A stretch of DNA of 64,000 nt from Azorinus chamasolen (Eukaryota; Mollusca; Bivalvia; Cardiida; Solecurtidae). A model generated the notes under the pieces. It saw only the letters and a program-made list of their open reading frames with translations, searched no databases and was not told where the DNA came from. Shown one piece after another: positions 8,684 through 49,640 of the stretch (position 1 is the first letter of the stretch; the number at the start of each line of letters is the position of its first letter). A program made the position numbers and the translations under genes. Location of the stretch: contig OY755243.1 in assembly GCA_963576725.1 (NCBI GenBank), positions 82,199,945-82,263,944 of the forward strand, in the 5' to 3' direction.

Positions 8684-8785
8684 TGAATGCTAGCAAATTT
8701 CAGGCGAGACAGTCACATTCAGAAAACTACAGTGAATTACTTTTCTGAATGTGACTGTCTCGCCTGAAATATACTAGCATTCATT
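8682..8785. repeat. 104-base perfect-arm hairpin
   Basis: The arms AATGAATGCTAGCAAATTTC...CTGAAAA (8682-8726) and TTTTCTGAATG...CTAGCATTCATT (8741-8785) pair with only a few mismatches around a 14-base loop. It abuts the TTAA of the preceding B2 element. It resembles none of the MITE families in the window. Confidence 0.8.
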
Positions 8786-12069: not shown

Positions 12070-14381
12070 GACTTATTTGAACAAAAGACATAGTGTATAT
12101 CCAATAATTACTAAGTGCAATAGTAAGAGATGTATATGTTACGATTTTATTTCTACTAGACCAACAATTAAATCTCTTGTTAATGTTAGAGTGTTCAGTG
12201 TGAAGATTAATTCTGATTTAGATTGAAACCTGTCTAATATTATATATGTTCTAACATGAAATGCTCCACGCTGTGGCATTCAATATGTAGGTCAGACAGG
12301 TCGTACTTTAAAAAACTAGGTTTCGTGAACAATTTCCACTGCTGAATCAAAGAAGTACGCAATTTTCTTTACCAGCATTTTCGTCATACAGGGCATTATT
12401 TAAAATATGTTTCTGTTCAACCAGTAGTAGAACAAATTCATTATGATTATAATACTACTAGCAGTTTTAAATCTAAAGCTCGTTTTATCACAGAGCTAGA
12501 CCTTTTCCTTTGGGCCTGAATGATAACATTTATCAAGTGGCAATATTTCTTAAGATCCTAGCATCGATATTTTCTCTATATTTTCTATTCGAAAACGTAT
12601 AAGTAGATCACATGGTAGACGTAGAAATGGTAATATTAAGCGTAAATACTCCGCAATATGTTTATTCATGATTTACATACCATTCTTAAAAAACTAGCAA
12701 ACATTCTAAGTTATCTTGTTAATCGTCTTTACCTTTTTCTTGTCTCAGGTCCATAGACGAAGAGGCTTATAAAATCTATATGCGTACATATCCGTTAATT
12801 AATACTGCCTCGCTTATACAAAGTTACACACAGCATGTTCTTCGTCCTCGTATTGATAAAGAATCTGAACATAAAAGGCATTTTCTGAAATTTCAAGTTC
12901 TAAATAAAGGTATCGATTTTTTGATATTCAAAGTATATTTCGTGATAAGAATGTAATCGATACCATTCCCAAATATTTCATCAACTCTGAATCACCTATC
13001 ATCTGTTATAAATATAATAAAGGAATGTTATTTTTAACTGCAATAAATTTGTCTCTGACTCAATACCTCTATTTCAAGCTTTTGATATAAACCAGTTGGT
13101 CATGTCATTACTGGTAATTTTGATAGCATTAAAGATAAACGTCTCAGGACCCTCCTAACTAAAGGACCACCTTCCCATATTGATTTTGACGTTTGTCGAA
13201 CTCATACTGCGGAAGCTATTCAAGAATTCTGCACCAAATGGTATCGACGAGAATATGCTGATGTTAATGCCCTTTCGGATTATTTTTGATTATTTTTGTA
13301 TTATTGCATTTTACAAATAAAATTAACAACTTTTACCACCTCGACCTAGAGTTACATTTCGCTATTTGAAGAAAAATATGTCTAAATTTCATTCAAATTA
13401 TGTTCTTGCTCCTGCTGACAAGGTATCAAATAATGTAATCATTATTTGAAGATTGTACTATGTTGATGTTATAAAGAAGAAGCTAATTGGTTCACAAACT
13501 TATATCACAGTTCAAACACCTGAAAAAGGTATAGTGCAGAAACATGTAAAAATGTGCAATACTTTTAAGTCTGTTCCTAACATAAAACAACATAAACTTT
13601 CTACTTTGTACTGGATTTCGAAACTACATAAAACCCTTATAAGGCGCGTTTTTTGCCAACTCTTGTTGTTGTACTACTACTAAAAATTCTAAACTTTTGA
13701 TGTCCTGTCTTACTACGATCAAAGAACATGTAAAACGTTACTGTGATGAAATATATGGAAATTCTGGTATTAATGTGTTTTGGTCCAGAAACAATTCAAA
13801 TGATGTTTTAACTAAACTTGAAAATGAACTCTTCACTGAGCTCTTCTGATTTCTCTACACTCTATACTACTCTACCTCACCATCTTATAAAGGATAAACT
13901 GATTAAATTAATAGAAAAAACCTTTGCCAGAGAAAATAAAATGTCCCTTGCTTGTAATGTTCAACGTTTATTCTTTTCGAATTCAGAAGTTGAACATTAC
14001 ACAATGTGGACTTGCCTTGATGTTTGTAGATCTCTTACCTTTCATTAAGATAATATATGTGTGCGTTATGGGGATACCATATATCGTCACGTTGTTAATA
14101 TACCCATGTGTACAAATTGTGCCCCTCTTGTTGCAGATTTGCTTTTGTATTGCTATCAGAGGTATTTTATGCTTATCTTAAAACCTGATACACAGGCCGA
14201 TATTGTTAATGCTTTTAATAACACTTCAAGGTATTTAGACGATATTTTGAATTTGGATGATCCTTATTTTGAAACGATGATTTCTTCAATTAACCTAAAA
14301 GAAATGTCTTTAAACAAAGCGAATCAATCTGACAGTATGGCTTCCTTCTTAAATTTGAATCTTTCCATCACATATGATGAA
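12070..14381 (+). pseudogene. Naiad Penelope-like retroelement, copy 1, broken
   Basis: Fragments in several frames match the intact copy at 35.9-39.1 kb: CNSKRCICYDF, then GIQYVGQTGRT (GIY-YIG endonuclease), the linker, LPPRPRVTFRYLK, LYTTLPHHLIKDKLIKLIEK (RT), TNCAPLVADLLL and YLDDILNLDDPYFETM. It has multiple frameshifts and deletions, including most of the CxC linker, and lacks the last quarter. In-frame TGA codons stand at 12224, 12257 and 13447, at the same places as in the intact copy. It is cut at 14381 by a minus-strand tail. It cannot encode a working protein. Confidence 0.9.
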
Positions 14382-14988: not shown

Positions 14989-15572
14989 TGGAAAAGTAGT
15001 AAAGTCAAGCAGGCAAAGCCACATACAAGACGCAACCACCACCAAAACACCGATAGACAGCATGACACACATACACACACACAACCACACAACCAAACGC
15101 ACACTCACACACGAGATGAACACAGAAAACACCAAAAGACACACAAGAACCAGAGACAAACGTTCCACACACGAACAAAATCACAAGCACAAAGACGCAA
15201 GGCAAACAAAAGGAAGGGTGACAAAAAGAGTACCGCCTTGGCACGGTCAGTAGCAAAACCACCACTGGGGGTTTAAACCGGTTTACGGACGTCCTAACCT
15301 CACACTTCTCTCAAAGTCACCCTAGCTTTACAAAGTGTAAATAAAGGTATCCCCGCTGGACTTACCCACAACATAGACGACGGTGAACACAGGACAACAT
15401 GTAAAACATAGCATAATAACTGTGACAATCCGTCAAATATGTACTCAATGACTTTGCTGAAGTCAGAGCACCCCTGCAGGTAAGCCGTTAAGGGCACGAC
15501 AGGGAAATAGTAATACATGGGTCTGGTAAGCTCATCCTGTATCCAAGTTTAAGAGTATACCATCATAGAGTA
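14989..15572 (-). mobile_element. 3' UTR and tail of Naiad copy 2
   Basis: The tail starts at the common TGGAAAAGTAG terminus (14989) and holds a short CA-rich stretch, ACCGCCTTGGCACGGTC, the AAACCGGTTTACGG block and the UTR up to the stop region. It joins the damaged coding part at about 15573. The frames read through it on either strand are repeat by-products. Confidence 0.85.
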
Positions 15573-15575
15573 CTA
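15511..15575 (-). promoter_or_regulatory. SECIS-like element of Naiad copy 2
   Basis: On the minus strand: ATGA, twelve bases (TGGTATACTCTT), AA, an apical loop, GAGCTTACCA, then GAC. The stems TGGTA/TACCA and CTC/GAG are the same as in copy 3, and the differences between the two copies fall outside the core. Selenocysteine insertion elements have this AUGA...AA...GA pattern. Confidence 0.7.
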
Positions 15576-17146
15576 CCCTCGGCCTGTCATCGCGCAAGCA
15601 AAGAGGGAAGCGTAAAAGGGTCGATAACCAAACATGCAGTGCGTTGCAATATAATGGGATCATAACCTTTCTTTTTAAATGTTTTAATGCGTTTAATAAA
15701 CAAATCATGAAACTGGATATGACCCCGCATTTTCCCCGCAAGTTTGTAGATAACATCCCCATAAAAGTCTGGTTGAGAAATGCCTTGTTGCAGTAACGTC
15801 CGTAGATTGCAATTATATTTACTAATGAGTGGTAAATTTCGATAATAAAATTTAGATAAAGTTTTCCGAAGTTTATGATATCTGTAACCTTGCTTAAGAA
15901 GTTTATCAGTTATAACTAAATTACGTCTGTTAAAATCTTCAAGCAAAGAACAGGCTCGAGCAAACCGAATAAGTTGAGAAATATAAACCCCATAAGATGT
16001 AGAACGTGGCACATCTCCATCCAGAAAAGGATAATTAACAATTTTAAAATTAAAATCTTCTCTTTTATCGTATATTTTGGACGAAACTTTATCATTTGTA
16101 ATTGCAGATTCAAATCTAAAAATGAAGCTATAATATCAGATTGATTCGCTTTGTTTAAAGACAGTTCTTTTGGGTAAATTGAAGAAATCATAGTTTCAAA
16201 ATAAGGATTATCTAAATTCAAAATATCGTCTAAATACCTTGAAGTGTTATTAAAAGCATTAACAATATCGGTCTGTGTATCAGGTTTTAAGCTAAGCATA
16301 AAATACCTCTCATAGCAATACAAAAACAAATCTGCAACAAGAGGGGCACAATTTGTAGCCATGGGTATACCAACAACTTGACGATATATGGTATCCCAAT
16401 AACGCACAAATACATTATCTAAACGAAAGGTAAGAGATCTACAAACATCAAGGCAAGTCCACATTGTGTGATGTTCAACTTCTGAATTCGAAAAGAATGA
16501 ACGTTGAACATTACAAGCAATGGACATTTTGTTTTCTCTGGCAAAGGGTTTTTTTCTATTAATTTAATCAGTTTATCCTTTATAAGATGGTGAGGTAGAG
16601 TAGTATAGAGTGTAGAGAAATCATAAGAGCTCAGTAAAGAAATGTTATACTGTTCATTTTCAAGTTTTGTTAAAACATCATTTGAATTTTTTATGGACCA
16701 AAAAACATTAATACCAGAATTTTCATATATTTTATCACAGTAGCGTTTTACATGTTCTTTGATCGTAGTAAGACAGGACGTCAAAAGTATAGATAATTTA
16801 GTAGTGGTACAACAGCTAGAGTTGGCAATAAAACGCGCCTTATAAGGGTTTTTATGTAGTTTCGGAATCCAGTACAAAGTAGAAAGTTTATGTTGTTTTA
16901 TGTTAGGACCAGACTTAAAATTAGCGCATTTTTACATGTTCCGAGACTATATCTTTTTCAGGTGTTTGAACTGTTATATAAGTTTTTGAATCAGTTAGCT
17001 CCTTCTTTAAAACATCAACATAATGCAATCTTCAAATAATGATTACATTATTTGATGCCTTGTCAGCAGGAACAAGAACATAATTTGAATGAAAATTAGA
17101 AATGTTTTTCTTCAAATAGCGAAATGTAACTCTAGATCGAGGTGGT
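15573..17146 (-). pseudogene. Naiad copy 2, 5'-truncated RT region
   Basis: It covers roughly residues 536-1063 of the intact copy: TLYWIPKLHKNPYKARF, SSYDFSTLYTTLPHH, GIPMATNCAPLVADLFLYC (the usual Gly after Met is Ala), YLDDILNLDNPYFETM and the C-terminal QLIRFARACSLLEDFNRR region. At least two frameshifts (near 16545 and 16105) and a 12-base deletion near the C-terminus break it. The TGA at 17034-17032 is conserved with the other copies. The truncated 5' edge joins an inverted tail piece at 17147. Confidence 0.92.
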
Positions 17147-17672
<526 letters not shown>

Positions 17673-28261: not shown

Positions 28262-28494
28262 CAGTAGAACCCCTCTAATACGACCAATTAATAAATACAC
28301 ATGGTTGTCTTTATAAGCAGGTGGTTGCTTAATACAGGACAAAAGTAATGCAGAAAGTTCCTCTAGGAGATTTCTGCATTACTTTTGTCCTGCATTAAGC
28401 TACCACCTGCATCTAGCACCCAGAATTATAAACCCCGTTAATGCGACCACATAAAAGACCTCTTTTAGGTGGTCGCATTAATGGGGGTTTACTG
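28262..28494. mobile_element. P-type MITE with duplicated right end
   Basis: CAGTAGAACCCCTCTAATAC after TA, arms GCAGGTGGTTGCTTAATACA and GTAATGCAGAAAGTTCCTCT. After CACCTGCATCTAGCACC the terminal block appears twice in opposite orientation (AAACCCCGTTAATGCGACCA and TGGTCGCATTAATGGGGGTT), making a second hairpin at 28429-28490. Ends ACTG before TA. Confidence 0.9.
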
Positions 28495-33393: not shown

Positions 33394-33966
33394 ACGAAAC
33401 CAATGGGCTTGTATAAGGCTACAAGAATCAGAGTGACACTTTGACGAATATGGGCATATCGAATATGTCGGGAAAATTGTTTGCTTTGTAGAACAGTTAA
33501 AAACTTCTGCTGCGTTTATTCAACTTTAGTATATATACTAGTTATTCATTCAAAAGAGAAAATACGCAGACACCTGCATCGTCCATGAAAAAGATAACGC
33601 AGACCATTTGTCGTGTTTCGAGACGTGTGATTTTCTTTATGCAAATATCAAAAGTGCAAAACTGTTGTAAATGCATCTTATCACATAACCTAACTTGTAT
33701 TCGAGTTAATATAGCCATCACATATTTCTCTATACTATACACGTTTAATATAATAATATATATAACACGTTCTATATTATACACGTTTAATGTAAGCTGT
33801 AACGTCATATAGAGACACCACGACGAGCTCTATATGCATGCAGTACCAGTCAAAAACGGCATATTTCTCGAAATAAGTTCTGTGATAAAAATAATATGAT
33901 GCTTGTAGTCATTTTAAGCAAACTGATATTAAACTCGTCTTGGAAAATGTTATTTAGCGAGCTAAA
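33394..33966. other. no gene or element recognised
   Basis: Opposed frames of about 75-88 codons (33542-33812) overlap on both strands and have no known domain. A short repeat of ATTATACACGTTTAAT occurs near 33735 and 33777. Confidence 0.45.
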
Positions 33967-34325
33967 TGGAAAAGTAGTAAAGTCAAGCAGGCAAAGCCAC
34001 ATGCAAGACGCAACCACCACCAAAACACCGATAGACAGCATGACACACACACACACACAACCACACACCCAAACGCACACGCACACACACGAAATGAACA
34101 CAGAAAACACCAAAAGACACACAAGAACCAGGGACAAACGTTCCACAACATGAACAAACCACAAGCACAAAGACGCAATGCAAACAAAAGGAAGGGTGAC
34201 AAAGAGAGTACCGCCTTGGCACGGTCAGCAGCAAAAACACCACTGGGGGTTTAAACCGGTTTACGGACGTCCTAACCTCACACTTCTCTCAAAGTCACCC
34301 TAGCTTTACAAATATTGTAATAAAG
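33967..34325 (-). mobile_element. solo Naiad tail
   Basis: Complete tail from the common TGGAAAAGTAG terminus to CTAGCTTTACAAATATTGTA, with a short CA tract, ACCGCCTTGGCACGGTC and AAACCGGTTTACGGACG. It stops before the UTR proper, so it is a heavily 5'-truncated insertion. All open frames over it are spurious. Confidence 0.9.
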
Positions 34326-34784: not shown

Positions 34785-35004
34785 TTAAATCTTTACCTGT
34801 TCAATATTCATGTTAATAATGATATAATGAAACTTTATAAGCTGATTTTTATCATGTAAACATTTCAAGGGACTATTTGCTTTGCTAAAAACAGTACAAC
34901 CAGATCTATATCATGCGATATGCTGACTTCTGTAGGAGCCGTCTGGTCTGTGTCTACTCTATCTAAAAAGGCTTGACAATGTGTTTATATGAAGGAAAGG
35001 GTTA
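34785..35004. mobile_element. B2/B1-type MITE, first of a joined pair
   Basis: TTAAATCTTTACCTGTTCAA to GAAGGAAAGGGTTAA. Contains ATTCATGTTAATAATGATAT, CAGATCTATATCATGCGATA, GTAGGAGCCGTCTGGTCTG and GTGTCTACTCTATC. Its right TTAA is shared with the next element. Confidence 0.8.
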
Positions 35005-35206
35005 ACCCTTTCCCTGATAGAGATGCATTTCCATGCCGTTTCAAAACGGGTAGACCCAGAGCAGACGGCTATCACAGGAGTCGTCTGCTCAAAGTATGTT
35101 GTGTTTGCTTATGAAATAATATAGATCTGATTCTACATTTTCTGTCATAATCACATAACATGATGTTATTATTTCTGACATAAATATTCACGAGATAAAG
35201 TGTTAC
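35001..35206. mobile_element. B2 MITE, second of a joined pair
   Basis: TTAACCCTTTCCCTGATAGA left; hairpin GAGCAGACGGCTATCACAGG and GTCGTCTGCTC; right end CGAGATAAAGTGTTAC. Contains GATTCTACATTTTCTG and GATGTTATTATTTCTGAC. Confidence 0.85.
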
Positions 35207-35309
35207 CAATCGCTGTTATACCAATGAAGCACCAATGACAGTCATACTGGTCTATGTTGGTAGATAATAATAAAGCTTTGCTTTGTCGGAAACCCCATAG
35301 TTCTTTGTA

Positions 35310-35849
35310 TGGAAAAGTAGTAAAGTCAAGCAGGCAAAGCCACATGCAAGACGCAACCACCACCAAAACACCGATAGACAGCATGACACACACACACACA
35401 CACATACACACACACAATCACACACCCAAACGCACACGCACACACACACACGAAATGAACACAGAAAACACCAAAAGACACACAAGAAACAGGGACAAAC
35501 GTTCCACAACATGAACAAACCACAAGCACAAAGACGCAAGGCAAACAAAAGGAAGGGTGACAAAGAGAGTACCGCCTTGGCACGGTCAGCAGCAAAAACA
35601 CTACTGGGGGTTTAAACCGGTTTACGGACGTCCTAACCTCACACTTCTCTCAAAGTCACCCTAGCTTTACAAATATTGTAAATAAAGGTATCCCCGCTGG
35701 ACTTACCCACAACATAGACGACGGTGAACACAGGACAACATGTAAAACATAGCATAATAACTGTGACAATCCGTCAAATATGTACTCAATGACTTTGCTG
35801 AAGTCAGAGCACCTGCAGGTAAGCCGTTAAGGGCACGACAGGGAAAAAA
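35310..35849 (-). other. 3' UTR and tail of Naiad copy 3
   Basis: Distal to the SECIS: a UTR with CTTCAGCAAAGTCATTGAG, GTCCAGCGGGGATACC, then the tail (ACGTCCGTAAACCGGTTT, GACCGTGCCAAGGCGGTA, a TG-rich tract and ACTTTACTACTTTTCCA). It has no poly(A) signal I can be sure of. Frames of 80-100 codons on both strands here are artefacts of the simple repeat. Confidence 0.85.
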
Positions 35850-35914
35850 TAATACATGAGTCTGGTAAGCTCCTCCTGTATCCAAGTTTAAGAGTATACC
35901 ATCATAGAGTACTA
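35850..35914 (-). promoter_or_regulatory. SECIS-like element, copy 3
   Basis: Minus strand after the TAG stop: AGTAC, TCT, ATGA, TGGTATACTCTT (12 bases), AA, an apical loop, GAGCTTACCA, GAC and GTATT. Helix I is AGTAC/GTATT; helix II is TGGTA/TACCA then CTC/GAG; the non-canonical quartet is ATGA with GA; the unpaired AA is 12 bases from ATGA. That is the layout of eukaryotic SECIS elements. It overlaps the last base of the stop codon, an unusually close placement. The fold was done by eye. Confidence 0.75.
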
Positions 35915-38900
35915 CCCTCGGCCTGTCATCGCGCAAGCAAAGAGGGAAGCGTAGCTACCGACTGTAAAAGGGTCGATAACCAAACATGCAGTGTGTTGCA
36001 ATATAATAGGATCATAACCTTTCTTTTTAAATTTTTTAATGCGTTTTATAAACAAATCATGAAAATGGATATGACCCCGAATTTTCCTAAGTTTGTAGAT
36101 AACATCCCCATAAAATTCTGGTTGAGAAATGCCTTGTCGCAGTAACGTCCGTAGATTGCAATTATATTTACTAATGAGAGGTAAATTTCGATAATAAAAT
36201 TTAGAAAAGGTTTTCCGAAGTTTGTGATATCTGTAACCTTGCTTAAGAAGTTTATCAGTTATAACTAAATTACGTCTGTTAAAATCTTCAAGCAAAGAAC
36301 AGGCTCGGGCAAACCTAATAAGTTGAGAAATATAAACACCATAAGATGTAGAACTTGGCACATCCCCGTCTAGAAAAGGATAATTAACAATTTTAAAATT
36401 AAAATCTTCTCTTTTATCGTATACTTTGGACGAAACTTTATCATTTGTAATTGAAAGATTCAAATCTAAAAATGAAGCATTAATGTCAGATTGATTAGCT
36501 TTGTTTAAAGACAGTTCTTTTGGGTAGATTAAAGAAACCATAGTATCAAAATAAGGATTATCTAAATTCAAAATATCGTCTAAATACCTTGAAGTTTTAT
36601 TAAAAGCATTAACAATATCGGTCTGTGTATCAGGTTTTAAGCTAAGCATAAAATCCCTCTCGTAGCAATACAAAAACAAATCTGCAACAAGAGGGGCACA
36701 ATTTGTACCCATGGGTATACCAACAACTTGACGATATATGGTATCTCCATAACGCACAAATATATTATCTAAAAGAAAGGTAAGAGATCTACAAACATCA
36801 AGGCAAGTCCACATTGTGTAATGTTCAACTTCTGAATTCGAAAAGAATGAACGTTGAACATTACAAGCAATGAACATTTTGTTTTCTCTGGCAAAGGTTT
36901 TTTCTATTAATTTAATAAGTCTATCCTTTATAAGATGGTGAGGTAGAGTAGTATAGAGTGTAGAGAAATCATAAGAGCTCAGTAAAGAAATGTTATACTG
37001 TTCATTTTCAAGTTTTGTTAAAACATCATTTGAATTTTTTATGGACCAAAAAACATTAATCCCAGAATTTTCATATATTTTATCACAGTAGCGTTTAACA
37101 TGTTCTTTGATCGTAGTAAGACAGGACGTCAAAAGTATAGATAATTTAGTAGTGGTACAACAGCTAGAGTTGGCAATAAAACGCGACTTATAAGGGTTTT
37201 TATGTAATTTCGGAATCCAGTACAAAGTAGAAAGTTTATGTTGTTTTATGTTAGGACCAGACTTAAAATCATTGCACATTTTTACATGTTCCGAGACTAT
37301 ATCTTTTTCAGGTGTTTGAACTGTTATATAAGTTTTTGAATCAGTTAGCTCCTTCTTTAAAACATCAACATAATACAATCTTCAAATAATGATTACATTG
37401 TTTGATGCCTTGTCAGCAGGAACAAGAACATAATCTGAATGAAAATTAGAAATGTTATTCTTCAAGTAGCGAAATGTAACTCTAGGTCGAGGTGGTAAAA
37501 GATGGTTATTTGATTTGTAAAAAGTTATTCGTGTATCAATAATATCGAAAATACATTTCTTCCAATCCGAAAGGGCATTAACATCAGCATGTTCTCGTCG
37601 ACACCATTTGATGCAGAATTCTTGAATAGCTTCCGCAATATGAGTTCGACAAACGTCAAAATCAATAAGGGAAGGTAATCTATATTTAGGTCCTTTAGTT
37701 AGGAGGGTCCTGAGACGTTTATCCTTAATGATATCAAAATTACCAGTAATGACATGACCAACTGGTTTATAGCAAAAGCTAGAAATGCTACAATCTCAAG
37801 AAATAGGGGTATTAACATCAATATTTAAGTCAGAGACAATTTTATTGTAGTTCAAAATAACATTTCTAATAGGTTTATTATATTTATAACAGATGATAGG
37901 TGATTCAGAGTTGATGAAATATTTGGGAATAGCCTCGATTACATTCTTATCACGAAATATACTTTGAATATCAATAAAATCGATACCTTTATTTAGGAAC
38001 TGAAGTTTCAGAAAATGTCTTTTGTGTTCAGATTCTTTATCAATACGTGGACGAAGAACATGCTGTGTGTAACTTTGTATAAGTGAGGCAGTATTAATTA
38101 ACGGATCTGTACGCAAATAGATTTTATCAGCCTCTTCGTCTATTGACTTAAGACAGGAAAAGGGTAAAGACGATAAACAAGATAACATAGAATGTTTACC
38201 AGTTTGTTTTAGAATAGTATGTAAATCATGAATAGACATATTACGACGTAATTTACGCTTAATATTACCATTTCTACGTCTGCCATGTGATCTACTTTTA
38301 CGTTTTCGAATAGAAAATATAGAGAAAATATCGATACTTGGATCTTTGGAAATATTGCCGCTTTGGAAAATGTTATCATTAAGGCCTCAAGGAAAAGGTG
38401 TTTGTAATTTCTTTATCCAGTCTAGCTCTGTGATGAAACGAGCTTTAGATTTTAAACTACCAGTAGTTTTAGAATCATAATAAATTTGTTCTACTGGTTG
38501 AACCGAAACATATTTGAAAGAATGTCCTGTATGACGAAAATGCTGGTAAAGAAAATTGCGTACTTTTTTGATCCGGCAATGGTAACTGTGTTCACGAAAC
38601 CTAGTTTTTAAGGAACGTCCTGTCTGACCTACATATTGAATGCCACAACGTGGCGCATTTCATGTAAGAACATATATAATATTAGATGAGTTTCAGTCTA
38701 AATCAGAATTAATCTTCACACTAAACACTCTACCATTAACAAGAGATTTAATTGTTGATCTAGTAGAAATGAAATTGCAACACATACACCTCTTACTATT
38801 GCACTTAGTAATTATTGGATACACCATATGTCTTTTGTTCAAATAATGTGAATTTAGATGGACTTTACTATAACGAATGATAGATTGCTTTAAAGGAGAC

Positions 38901-39103
38901 AAAACGATTTTAGGTCCATTATGAAACATGTTACTAATAGCCGAAGAGGGAACATGAAAAGATGAAGCAGAAGACAATTTTAGAGGTTTAATACAAACTG
39001 ACGGCTGTAGTGATTGGAAATTAGCCAGGTTATGAGGAATCTGAACGGAAGACACAGAGTGTAAGTTTAAGTTATTAATTTTGAGTTTAGGGAGACTATT
39101 CAT
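35912..39103 (-). CDS. Naiad endonuclease-reverse transcriptase, putative selenoprotein
   Basis: One frame of 1063 residues with no stop but five TGA, at residues 137, 148, 239, 436 and 574 (first bases 38695, 38662, 38389, 37798, 37384). Order: a Ser/Leu/Asn-rich start; CNSKRCMCC (101-109), probable zinc ligands; GIQYVGQTGRSLKTRFREH (154-172), the GIY-YIG endonuclease, with downstream HFRHTGH; a basic linker; TGA-D-C (436-438), matching the CxC motif; then RT: LHKNPYKSR (633), SSYDFSTLYT with catalytic D712, GIPMGTNCAP (795) and YLDDI (840-844). N-terminal placement of GIY-YIG defines the Naiad/Chlamys group of Penelope-like elements. TGA 137, 148, 436 and 574 fall where relatives have Cys, so selenocysteine is the likely reading. 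Start: the frame stays open to 39505, but that stretch reads as hydrophobic low-quality sequence, so I chose the ATG at 39103. The protein would cut target DNA and prime cDNA synthesis in the nucleus. Confidence 0.88.
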
Positions 39104-39527
39104 ATTTTGTGTAGTAATTGTAGCACCCTTCTGTAAAAAGCGACATACGTATGTAACGAAAAGTGGTGTAAAATAATAGAAAACATACCAGAGATTATGA
39201 CAAAAATAAAAAAGACTAAGAATATGAATGAAACATTGAATAGTGAAACATTGAATGGGTAAAAAGTAAGAAGAAACACAAATAAGGTAAAGTCGCACTA
39301 GAGAAAACGCAAACGGCACAAATCTTAAAAGGGAAATTAAAATAGTCACACAATATGTCGGTGAGTACGGAAGCCACCATGAAGTGCAAAGTACGGTGTA
39401 AAGGTATGAGGAAACACATTGAATGTAGAGCAATTCCTGCAAGAGGAAGAAAACAATATTGATTGGATGTACGGGGAGACGTTTCACCGCCGCCACACTG
39501 CACAAACAACACTATTGTGCTTATAAA

Positions 39528-39655
39528 TGGAAAAGTAGTAAAGTCAAGCAAGCAAAGCCACATGCAAGACGCAACCACCACCAAAACACCGATAGACAGC
39601 ATGACACACACACACACATACACACACACAATCACACACCCAAACGCACACGCAC
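39528..39655 (-). mobile_element. truncated upstream pseudo-LTR of Naiad copy 3
   Basis: The first 128 bases of the tail in the same orientation as at 35310, from TGGAAAAGTAGTAAAG to CCCAAACGCACACGCAC. Its terminus abuts the leader of copy 3 directly (TTATAAA before it), the tail-to-head joint expected of tandem Penelope-like insertions. Confidence 0.85.
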
Positions 39656-40149
39656 CGACCATTCCATCCAGACCCAACACTCTTAAACTATAGAGTCCAT
39701 GAAGCTTGAAGTAATTAATTTGCTAGAGCAATTTGAATGACAAACATTGCAGACCGAGATAAGATTTCTTCTCTGGAAATCTTGGTTTACACTGTTTGCA
39801 AAGGCTAATATACTTGATTCCCGCATTGAAATGGTTAAGTAAAATGGAAATAAATTGTGATAGAACATTTAAACAAGAGGAAAAAGGAAACACTATAGAC
39901 ATGCTGTAAAATGTTTCAAGGAAACACATTTGGGAAAAACGATATAAAGATGTTAGTGACACTGTGATTTATTTGACTTCTGCTAGTCGAAAGACTGGTG
40001 AAATATATAAAACAGAAAAAAACAAATGTACAGATGATGCGTAAACAACGTTTAGCCTTTCATTCCATTAATACGTATCTACGCCATGACAAACAGAACA
40101 TTAATGTCGCAAATGTTATTACTCCACATTTTAGACAAAGGTTCATGTT
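39656..40149. other. no gene or element recognised
   Basis: Two overlapping minus-strand frames (39683-39962) lack recognisable motifs. A weak B2-like scrap (CATTCCATTAATACGTATCT, GCCATGACAAACAGAA) lies near 40060-40100. Confidence 0.4.
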
Positions 40150-40343
40150 GGTTCTGTACTAATCGTAACTACATGTACGTTCAATTTGGTTCCCCGAGGT
40201 GCTGGTTCTGTACTAATCGTAACTACGTTCGAATTTGGTTCCCCGGGGTGTTAGTTCTGTAATAATCACAACTACGTACACATTGTTTCCCCGTTTTGGT
40301 TCTATGCCAATCGAAATTACGTTCCAGTTGGCTCCCCGAGGTG
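40150..40343 (+). repeat. minisatellite, about four units of 46-54 bases
   Basis: Units begin near 40150, 40204, 40252 and 40298 with GGTTCTGTACTAATCGTAAC and contain TTTGGTTCCCCGAGGTG. Divergence increases along the array. Confidence 0.85.
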
Positions 40344-44678: not shown

Positions 44679-44873
44679 ACCTCTATAACGGCCACTAAAT
44701 TACATCAAGTATTTTGTGTTAAAGGCAGGTGACTGCTTAAAGCAAGGTGAAAGTAAAACAGAACGATCCTATAGGAGCGTTCTGTTTTACTTTCACTTTG
44801 CTTTAAGCAGCCACCTGCCCTAAATACCAACTAATTAACACAATTAAATGATCGTTATAGAGAGGTTTTACTG
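44674..44873. mobile_element. P-type MITE, ATAACGGCCAC subfamily
   Basis: Right end GAGAGGTTTTACTG before TA; left end worn (TAGTTAAACCTCTATAAC). Perfect palindrome AAAACAGAACGATCCTATAG with GAGCGTTCTGTTTTAC. Closest to 3402-3562 and keeps the left arm that copy lacks. Confidence 0.88.
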
Positions 44874-48704: not shown

Positions 48705-48760
48705 AAGAACAAATTCTACTTGTTAATGTGTTCATCATGGTTTAATGAAAAAGTAGTAAA

Positions 48761-48878
48761 TGGAAAAGTAGTAAAGTCAAGCAGGCAAAGCCACATGCAA
48801 GACGCAACCACCACCAAAACACCGATAGACAGCATGACACACACACACACACACACACACACACAACCACACACCCAA

Positions 48879-48923
<45 letters not shown>

Positions 48924-49407
48924 ATGAACACAGAAAACACCAAACGACACACAAGAACCAGGGACAAACGTTCCACACATGAACAAATCACAAGCACAAA
49001 GACGCAAGGCAAACAAAAGGAAGGGTGACAAAGAGAGTACCGCCTTGGCACGGTCAGTAGCAAAAACACCACTGGGGGTTTAAACCGGTTTACGGACGTC
49101 CTAACCTCACACTTCTCTCAAAGTCACCCTAGCTTTACAAATATTGTAAATAAAGGTATCCCCACTGGACTTACCCACAACATAGACGACGGTGAACACA
49201 GGACAACATGTAAAACATAGCATAATAACTGTGACAATCCGTCAAATATGTACTCAATGACTTTGCTGAAGTCAGAGCACCTGCAGGTAAGCCGTTAAGG
49301 GCACGACAGGGAAAAAGTAATACATGAGTCTGGTAAGCTCATCCTGTATCCAAGTTTAAGAGTCATAGAGTACTACCCTCGGCCTGTCATCGCGCAAGCA
49401 AAGAGGG
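48761..49407 (-). mobile_element. Naiad 3' fragment: tail, UTR and last codons
   Basis: It runs from the common terminus at 48761 through a long CA-rich tract, the UTR and the stop region to CGATGACAGGCCGAGGG and CTCTTTGC at about 49407, where it breaks off inside the last codons. The SECIS stem has lost seven bases compared with copies 2 and 3. At its terminus, AAAAGTAGTAAA is duplicated (48748-48760). It is a 5'-truncated insertion and makes no protein. Confidence 0.9.
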
Positions 49408-49640
49408 AAAGCCACACACAGAACGCCACCATCTCCATAACATCGATAGAAAGCAATTTATACACACACACACCCGCGCACGCACGCACACACACATACA
49501 CACACAGAGGGTATAGAAATATTAAACACGAACGAACGCACAAGTACAAAGACACAAGACCAAGAGACACGCAAGGGCGAACACACAAACCCGAACAAAC
49601 ACATAAGTACAAAAACACCAAACAAACACCAAATAAAGTC
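49408..49640 (-). mobile_element. older Naiad-type tail joined head to tail
   Basis: GCCACACACAGAACGCCACC, ATCGATAGAAAGCAATTTAT, a CA/CGCACG tract and repeated AAGTACAAAGACACAAGACC resemble the tail but are clearly diverged. Same orientation as 48761-49407, immediately adjoining. Frames over it are artefacts. Confidence 0.6.

Follow-up and report, generated by a model that had tools for sequence, protein, structure and literature searches.

A window of 64,000 nt from Azorinus chamasolen (contig OY755243.1), which is the whole stretch of DNA analyzed here, carries on its minus strand a Penelope-like retroelement of Naiad layout, having a single open reading frame (ORF) with five in-frame TGA codons. 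With a probability of about 0.85, we consider this to be a slightly decayed copy of a Naiad-type element that has been active recently and encodes one endonuclease–reverse transcriptase protein with four selenocysteine (Sec) residues, served by one selenocysteine insertion sequence (SECIS) element, with the fifth TGA, at codon 239, being a private nonsense mutation. As judged by comparison of the copies, codons 137, 148, 436 and 574 appear to be Sec codons by design.

The frame starts with an ATG at 39103 and ends with a TAG at 35914–35912. As described in an earlier, sequence-only reading of this DNA, it comprises 1063 codons without any internal TAA or TAG and without a frameshift, with TGA found at codons 137, 148, 239, 436 and 574. 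TAA and TAG together would be expected at 4.7% of codons from the local base composition, giving a probability of ~4e-23 for finding none in 1063. The motifs GIQYVGQTGR, SSYDFSTLYT, GIPMGTNCAP and YLDDI were all found in the protein, and the claimed Naiad-type layout also agreed with our analysis, the GIY-YIG domain being located N-terminally of a telomerase-like reverse transcriptase (RT) region, which is the permuted order. In alignment A1, 14 of the 22 sequences matched GIY-YIG at E 0.01, the best value being 1.7e-7, and the best fold matches of a predicted-structure model of the RT region, made from alignment A3 (mixed ORF fragments, the conservation summary of which was not used), were TERT chains. 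A sequence search of the PDB gave one meaningless match only (E 0.74).

The host assembly (1.72 Gb, 137 contigs) was searched with the window protein for the near-identical copies that the sequence-only reading had proposed to look for, and 43 full-length frames were retrieved and scored from 48,708 first-look candidates, a figure that is not a copy number. Codons 137, 148, 436 and 574 were TGA in all 43, and the 42 copies other than that of the window had exactly these four TGA codons each and no other internal stop. The copies differed from each other by a median p-distance of 0.34% and a maximum of 0.78%, with one pair of tandem neighbors being identical, and among the first 30 of them the codon variants were 63 synonymous and 40 non-synonymous, giving a ratio of non-synonymous to synonymous polymorphism (pN/pS) of 0.17. 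Near-identity of the copies together with purifying selection indicates a young family, in which the frame with its four TGA codons has been under selection. A second ranking was made using P0004, a relative with Cys at all four sites, and 39 of its 46 matches, a set overlapping with the 43, again had exactly four TGA codons and no other stop. With P0002 as query, 58 matches were obtained, all having two TGA codons and one TAG, as is to be expected from a query that covers no sites other than 436 and 574 and extends beyond the terminal TAG of the family. Three of these places were read, two of which (L055 and L057) belonged to the family of the window, while the third was L054, a subfamily copy in the same genome that is 70.8% identical and has TGT at codon 137 together with TGA at 148, 436 and 574. 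This copy thus appears to present a Sec/Cys difference at one site, with the other three TGA codons surviving ~29% protein divergence.

The same positions were compared in 262 protein relatives, taken from the matches listed in three protein searches. Cys was found at site 137 in 15/15 and at site 148 in 17/17 of the relatives covering these sites, at site 436 in 58 of 64 (the others having Trp in four cases, Ser in one and Asn in one) and at site 574 in 28 of 34, P0109 being one of them (here with four Trp, one Ser and one Asp as the remainder). The Trp residues are most simply explained as TGA codons that a gene caller translated under a code with TGA as Trp. Among 120 relatives listed of 496 matches, 71 ended exactly at residue 435 and 38 exactly at 573, the latter with Cys at 436, while 11 ended elsewhere; the open frames of these relatives hence stop at codons that are TGA here, an ORF end marking a stop without telling which stop codon it is. 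Among a further 119 new relatives listed of 3145, together with P0002, 16 started before residue 575, 44 at 575–585 and 60 later.

Codon 239 differed from the other four sites. It was a leucine codon in 42 of the 43 host copies, being TGA solely in the window copy, and the 139 relatives covering it had Leu (118), Tyr (13), Phe (5), Ile (2) or His (1). This TGA is therefore a private nonsense mutation that was not part of the design. The comparison with homologous copies, which had been named as a test that could refute the suggestion of a multi-selenocysteine enzyme, hence did not refute it at four sites but did so at codon 239. The view of the copy as nearly intact was not supported; it carried 13 private nucleotide differences (mean 2.7), the most of all 43 and including the nonsense codon at 239. 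Its suggested youth thus applies to the family, which is young, yet the window copy is among the more decayed members. It is probably dead unless its own SECIS element also reads codon 239, without which it would yield at most the endonuclease part, and we would describe it as a member of a young family that was inactivated recently.

The SECIS-like hairpin noted at the stop codon was recovered as a match to the Rfam family SECIS_1, beginning within the TAG itself and having a score of 23.2 bits, with the gathering score of the family being 35. Its E-value, calculated for all 4227 families, was 0.42 when 5 kb were searched and 5.3 for the whole window, the latter on division by the family count giving a per-family expectation of ~0.001 per window, and it was the sole SECIS_1 match up to E 10 within the window on either strand. 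The hairpin folded better than 198 of 200 shuffled sequences (z -2.88). When five genomic copies were scanned, SECIS_1 accounted for all eight Rfam matches with E-values up to 3, five of them being located at the end of the ORF and three at the corresponding position of an upstream neighbor. The 75 nt from the stop codon were identical in 38 of the 43 copies and had one change in each of the other five. The corresponding element of L054 (L054:3250-3312) scored 26.0 bits, and when it was aligned with those of the window element and of copy C, a partial copy in the window (21.2 bits), 4 of 16 base pairs had changed on both sides in a compensatory manner and 47 of 48 cells could pair, compared with 33–50% in slid controls, with 9 of 500 shuffles reaching the covariation score. 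A hand-made test of SECIS geometry, in which none of 2000 base-shuffled versions of the 3' untranslated region (UTR) reached the score of the element, was devised after the hairpin had been seen and is not counted as evidence.

Relatives at ~60% identity had a frame eight codons longer, ending at 1071 (31 relatives with 19 distinct tails), and in all 31 residue 1067 was Met, with the next residue being Met in 27, Thr in two, Asn in one and Ile in one. Codons for these four amino acids all begin with A, and Met followed by an A-starting codon in 31/31 tails implies that the AUGA core has been kept while the amino acid varies. The stop after 1071 would coincide with the apical UAAAC of the SECIS element, as suggested by placing the tails of these relatives on the sequence of the element itself. 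With the AUGA core within a coding tail and the stop at UAAAC, the SECIS element of the ~60% relatives would overlap the coding region. In copy L020, one of the five with a change in the 75 nt, codon 1064 was CAG in place of the terminal TAG, whereby the frame would extend to a TAA within the SECIS element, as in the ~60%-identity relatives. With regard to the host machinery, one clear match to tRNA-Sec was found (80.7 bits, anticodon TCA), while three other matches, two that barely exceeded the cut-off (47.2 bits) and one that narrowly missed it, proved to be tRNA-Ser on checking.

We considered four other explanations of these codons and of the element. That all five TGA codons are Sec codons by design would agree with the window copy taken alone, as it has TGA at all five positions in an otherwise open frame, and one SECIS element may in principle serve all UGA codons of an mRNA. 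Such a design is however hardly credible in view of the leucine codon in 42/43 copies and the lack of Sec or Cys at this site in 139/139 relatives, with Leu being found at 239 also in L054 and in partial copy B of the window; it was ruled out, the TGA at codon 239 being private to the window copy. Even less probable, to the extent of being negligible, is ordinary decay of a dead element. Decay is evident in the private nonsense codon of the window copy and in the visibly decayed copies B and E, but it would not produce four identical TGA codons in 43/43 copies having no other internal stop than that at 239 in the window copy, a pN/pS of 0.17, or three of the four TGA codons kept at 71% protein identity, and for the four shared sites it was ruled out. 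The four codons could also be sense codons by another route, either through a reassigned host code with UGA as Cys or Trp or through plain readthrough without Sec, which would account for TGA at positions where relatives have Cys and for the few database proteins with Trp at 436 and 574. We regard this as very improbable, since the frame uses TGT or TGC 30 times and TGA five times, a SECIS-type hairpin with compensatory changes is found at the stop codon, the host has a tRNA-Sec, and the Trp residues seem to be products of gene calling. Finally, the element could be a Penelope-like element outside of the Naiad clade that happens to have the same domain order. The permuted position of GIY-YIG is the mark of Naiads, and we consider an origin outside the clade to be improbable, although not to the same degree as a recoded or read-through UGA. 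GIY-YIG precedes the RT region here, whereas it follows the RT in canonical elements (PMC11167929, as far as the available part of that article covers them).

Several observations weigh against the interpretation of a Naiad-type element with four Sec residues. The GIY-YIG domain of the window protein itself scored 19.7 bits (PF01541, E 0.0011), below the Pfam cut-off of 22.6, and the SECIS scores of 21–26 bits are likewise below the Rfam cut-off of 35, with the covariation coming from three sequences to which the structure was fitted. The set of 43 copies is biased towards those most similar to the window protein, and 7 of the 46 copies obtained with P0004 deviated from exactly four TGA codons, having four TGA and a TAG (two copies), four TGA and a TAA (two), five TGA and a TAG (one), five TGA (one) or three TGA (one). 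In the last of these, L056, codon 574 encodes serine and a change in the SECIS element breaks a pair, which counts against strict conservation, though it is to be expected of a decaying copy. Membership of the Naiads, moreover, is a putative one that was assigned by the domain layout. The features of the element and of its other copies within the window are given in Table 1.

Table 1. Features of the Naiad-type element and its further copies in the window
Feature	Position	Strand	Remarks
Repeat unit of the element	35309..39526	-	4218 bp, 5' TTATAAGCAC... to 3' ...ACTTTTCCAT
3' end of upstream partial copy (pseudo-LTR)	39527..39655	-	Head to tail with the element
3' terminal repeat of the element itself (pseudo-LTR)	35309..35437	-	
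ORF, GIY-YIG endonuclease and telomerase-like RT	35912..39103	-	1063 codons plus TAG
GIY-YIG domain	38534..38680	-	Residues 142-190, Pfam PF01541
Telomerase-like RNA-binding and RT region	36017..37888	-	Residues about 406-1029
Predicted SECIS overlapping the stop codon	35851..35913	-	Rfam SECIS_1 match
Putative Sec site, TGA codon 137	38693..38695	-	
Putative Sec site, TGA codon 148	38660..38662	-	
Private nonsense mutation, TGA codon 239	38387..38389	-	Behind the GIY-YIG domain
Putative Sec site, TGA codon 436	37796..37798	-	
Putative Sec site, TGA codon 574	37382..37384	-	
Partial copy B, decayed	12073..14381	+	91.9% over aligned bases
Partial copy C	14989..17149	-	96.7% over aligned bases
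3' fragment, copy D	33966..34325	-	
3' fragment, copy E	48760..49409	-	

The bounds of the repeat unit were set by the junction and the 3' terminus common to copies L004-L032. An extent of 35310-39655 had been proposed for the element, most of which corresponds to this unit, while 39527-39655 belongs to another, partial copy and is not the 5' end of the element. That segment is a 129-bp direct repeat of 35309-35437, with a gapped alignment of the two showing one substitution and differences in the length of a GT run, and the two segments thus form the pseudo-long terminal repeats (pseudo-LTRs) of Table 1. Among the 30 copies L003-L032, the 3' terminus ...ACTTTTCCAT was common to 30/30 within 2 nt; 21 immediately followed the 3' part of another copy, with the same junction in each, while the other nine started elsewhere and were 5'-truncated, and several places were head-to-tail arrays with a period of ~4.2 kb. 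This structure of partial tandems and pseudo-LTRs would fit target-primed reverse transcription from the 3' end. In the mechanism that we propose, UGA at 137, 148, 436 and 574 would be read as Sec under the one SECIS element starting at the stop codon, and the enzyme would, as in other Penelope-like elements, nick DNA and prime reverse transcription at the nick, a process that may leave the 3'-anchored, 5'-truncated and head-to-tail copies found here. A hammerhead motif near the pseudo-LTR has been reported for many, though not all, Penelope-like elements; in 35000-40000 no match to it was obtained up to E 10, and a search with a simple pattern found none either. Downstream DNA started with TTA in 15 of 28 copies without a following copy, counted by eye, which is like the 5' end of the element (TTATAAGC) and may point to a preferred target. 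Two good 3' splice sites were seen on the minus strand in the 5' UTR, at 39437-39440 and 39131-39140 (TTGCAG and TTTACAG), as well as a donor-like site, GTGGGTAAGT, on the same strand in the 3' UTR (35701-35710), so that a head-to-tail transcript could have an intron spanning the junction of two copies.

The window contained four further partial copies (B-E) besides the main element. Copy B had TGA at 137, 148 and 574, with site 436 deleted and eight other in-register stops, copy C had TGA at 574, and copy E gave no SECIS_1 match, its SECIS element carrying an internal deletion. A tandem array with a unit of ~49 bp adjoins the element at 40129-40343, and just beyond its 3' end is an inverted repeat, 34925-35082, having 79-nt arms that are 73% complementary and lack a spacer. 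Near-perfect hairpins at 8698-8770, 28325-28402 and 44730-44813, which on either strand matched microRNA models with scores under the cut-off, are probably short inverted-repeat transposons.

Relatives were also found under bacterial names. A scan of genome contigs with the RT alignment gave two loci, one being L001 (3572-4850) on contig NYSS01000008.1 of a Planctomycetota metagenome-assembled genome (MAG), an RT relative at 33% identity that is either eukaryotic contamination or a transfer, and the other a fragment in a Thioglobus MAG; no relatives were confirmed in scans of viral contigs. RT fragments P0120, P0141 and P0246 are annotated in genomes of bacterial symbionts (Candidatus Thiodiazotropha, symbiont of Lucinoma), and are probably host DNA left in symbiont MAGs.

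Sec-coding Naiads, with in-frame UGA and a SECIS element, were reportedly described in some animals by Craig, Yushenova, Rodriguez and Arkhipova in 2021, and the present element is one more of that kind. Naiads have an N-terminal GIY-YIG domain, a telomerase-like RT and pseudo-LTR partial tandems, all of which this element shares with them in addition to in-frame UGA and SECIS. Compared by layout with the Naiads of 2021, the present family differs in that 43 copies fix how many Sec codons there are and where, and in that the SECIS element of relatives would extend over the frame end. Retroelement selenoproteins are, to our knowledge, rare and known from sequence only, and a literature search of a limited collection found no paper joining Penelope-like or Naiad elements with selenocysteine. 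Canonical Penelope/Poseidon elements, such as PAc of Anolis, share with this element the combination of GIY-YIG and telomerase-like RT in one ORF as well as pseudo-LTR tandems, while having the endonuclease C-terminal to the RT and a hammerhead motif, as compared with an N-terminal endonuclease and no hammerhead found here; the available part of the article on PAc makes no mention of Sec (PMC11167929). According to the accessible parts of two articles on selenoproteins, the GPX4-like protein of fowlpox virus has a functional SECIS element inside its ORF (PMC6769590), and selenoprotein P has ten UGA codons with two SECIS elements in the human mRNA (PMC5133445). The former resembles the overlap of SECIS and coding sequence proposed for the relatives here, in an unrelated protein from a poxvirus gene with one UGA, and the latter, also unrelated, has several UGA codons per frame in common with this element, though with two SECIS elements compared with the one found here. 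What we consider new is that four of the five TGA codons belong to the design while one arose by accident, that a Sec/Cys difference is seen between copies of the same genome, and that the SECIS element starts in the stop codon and in relatives would overlap the frame end, an overlap that the 2021 paper may have noted.

If Sec must be inserted four times in succession under a single SECIS element for the full-length protein to be made, then transposition would follow the selenium status and the Sec factors of the host. We can only tentatively propose, as a rather doubtful extension, that the retrotransposon is selenium-gated in this manner and that the same SECIS element buffers UGA nonsense mutations such as that at 239, whereby the window copy could still make a protein with five Sec residues. 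The family is a good test case in having many near-identical copies, four fixed UGA codons, a compact SECIS element and a natural allele with an extra UGA, and the natural Sec/Cys difference at one site in L054 adds to this value. Questions that can be addressed with it are whether transposition is limited by selenocysteine, and why the reverse transcriptase has kept Sec at sites where Cys suffices for its relatives.

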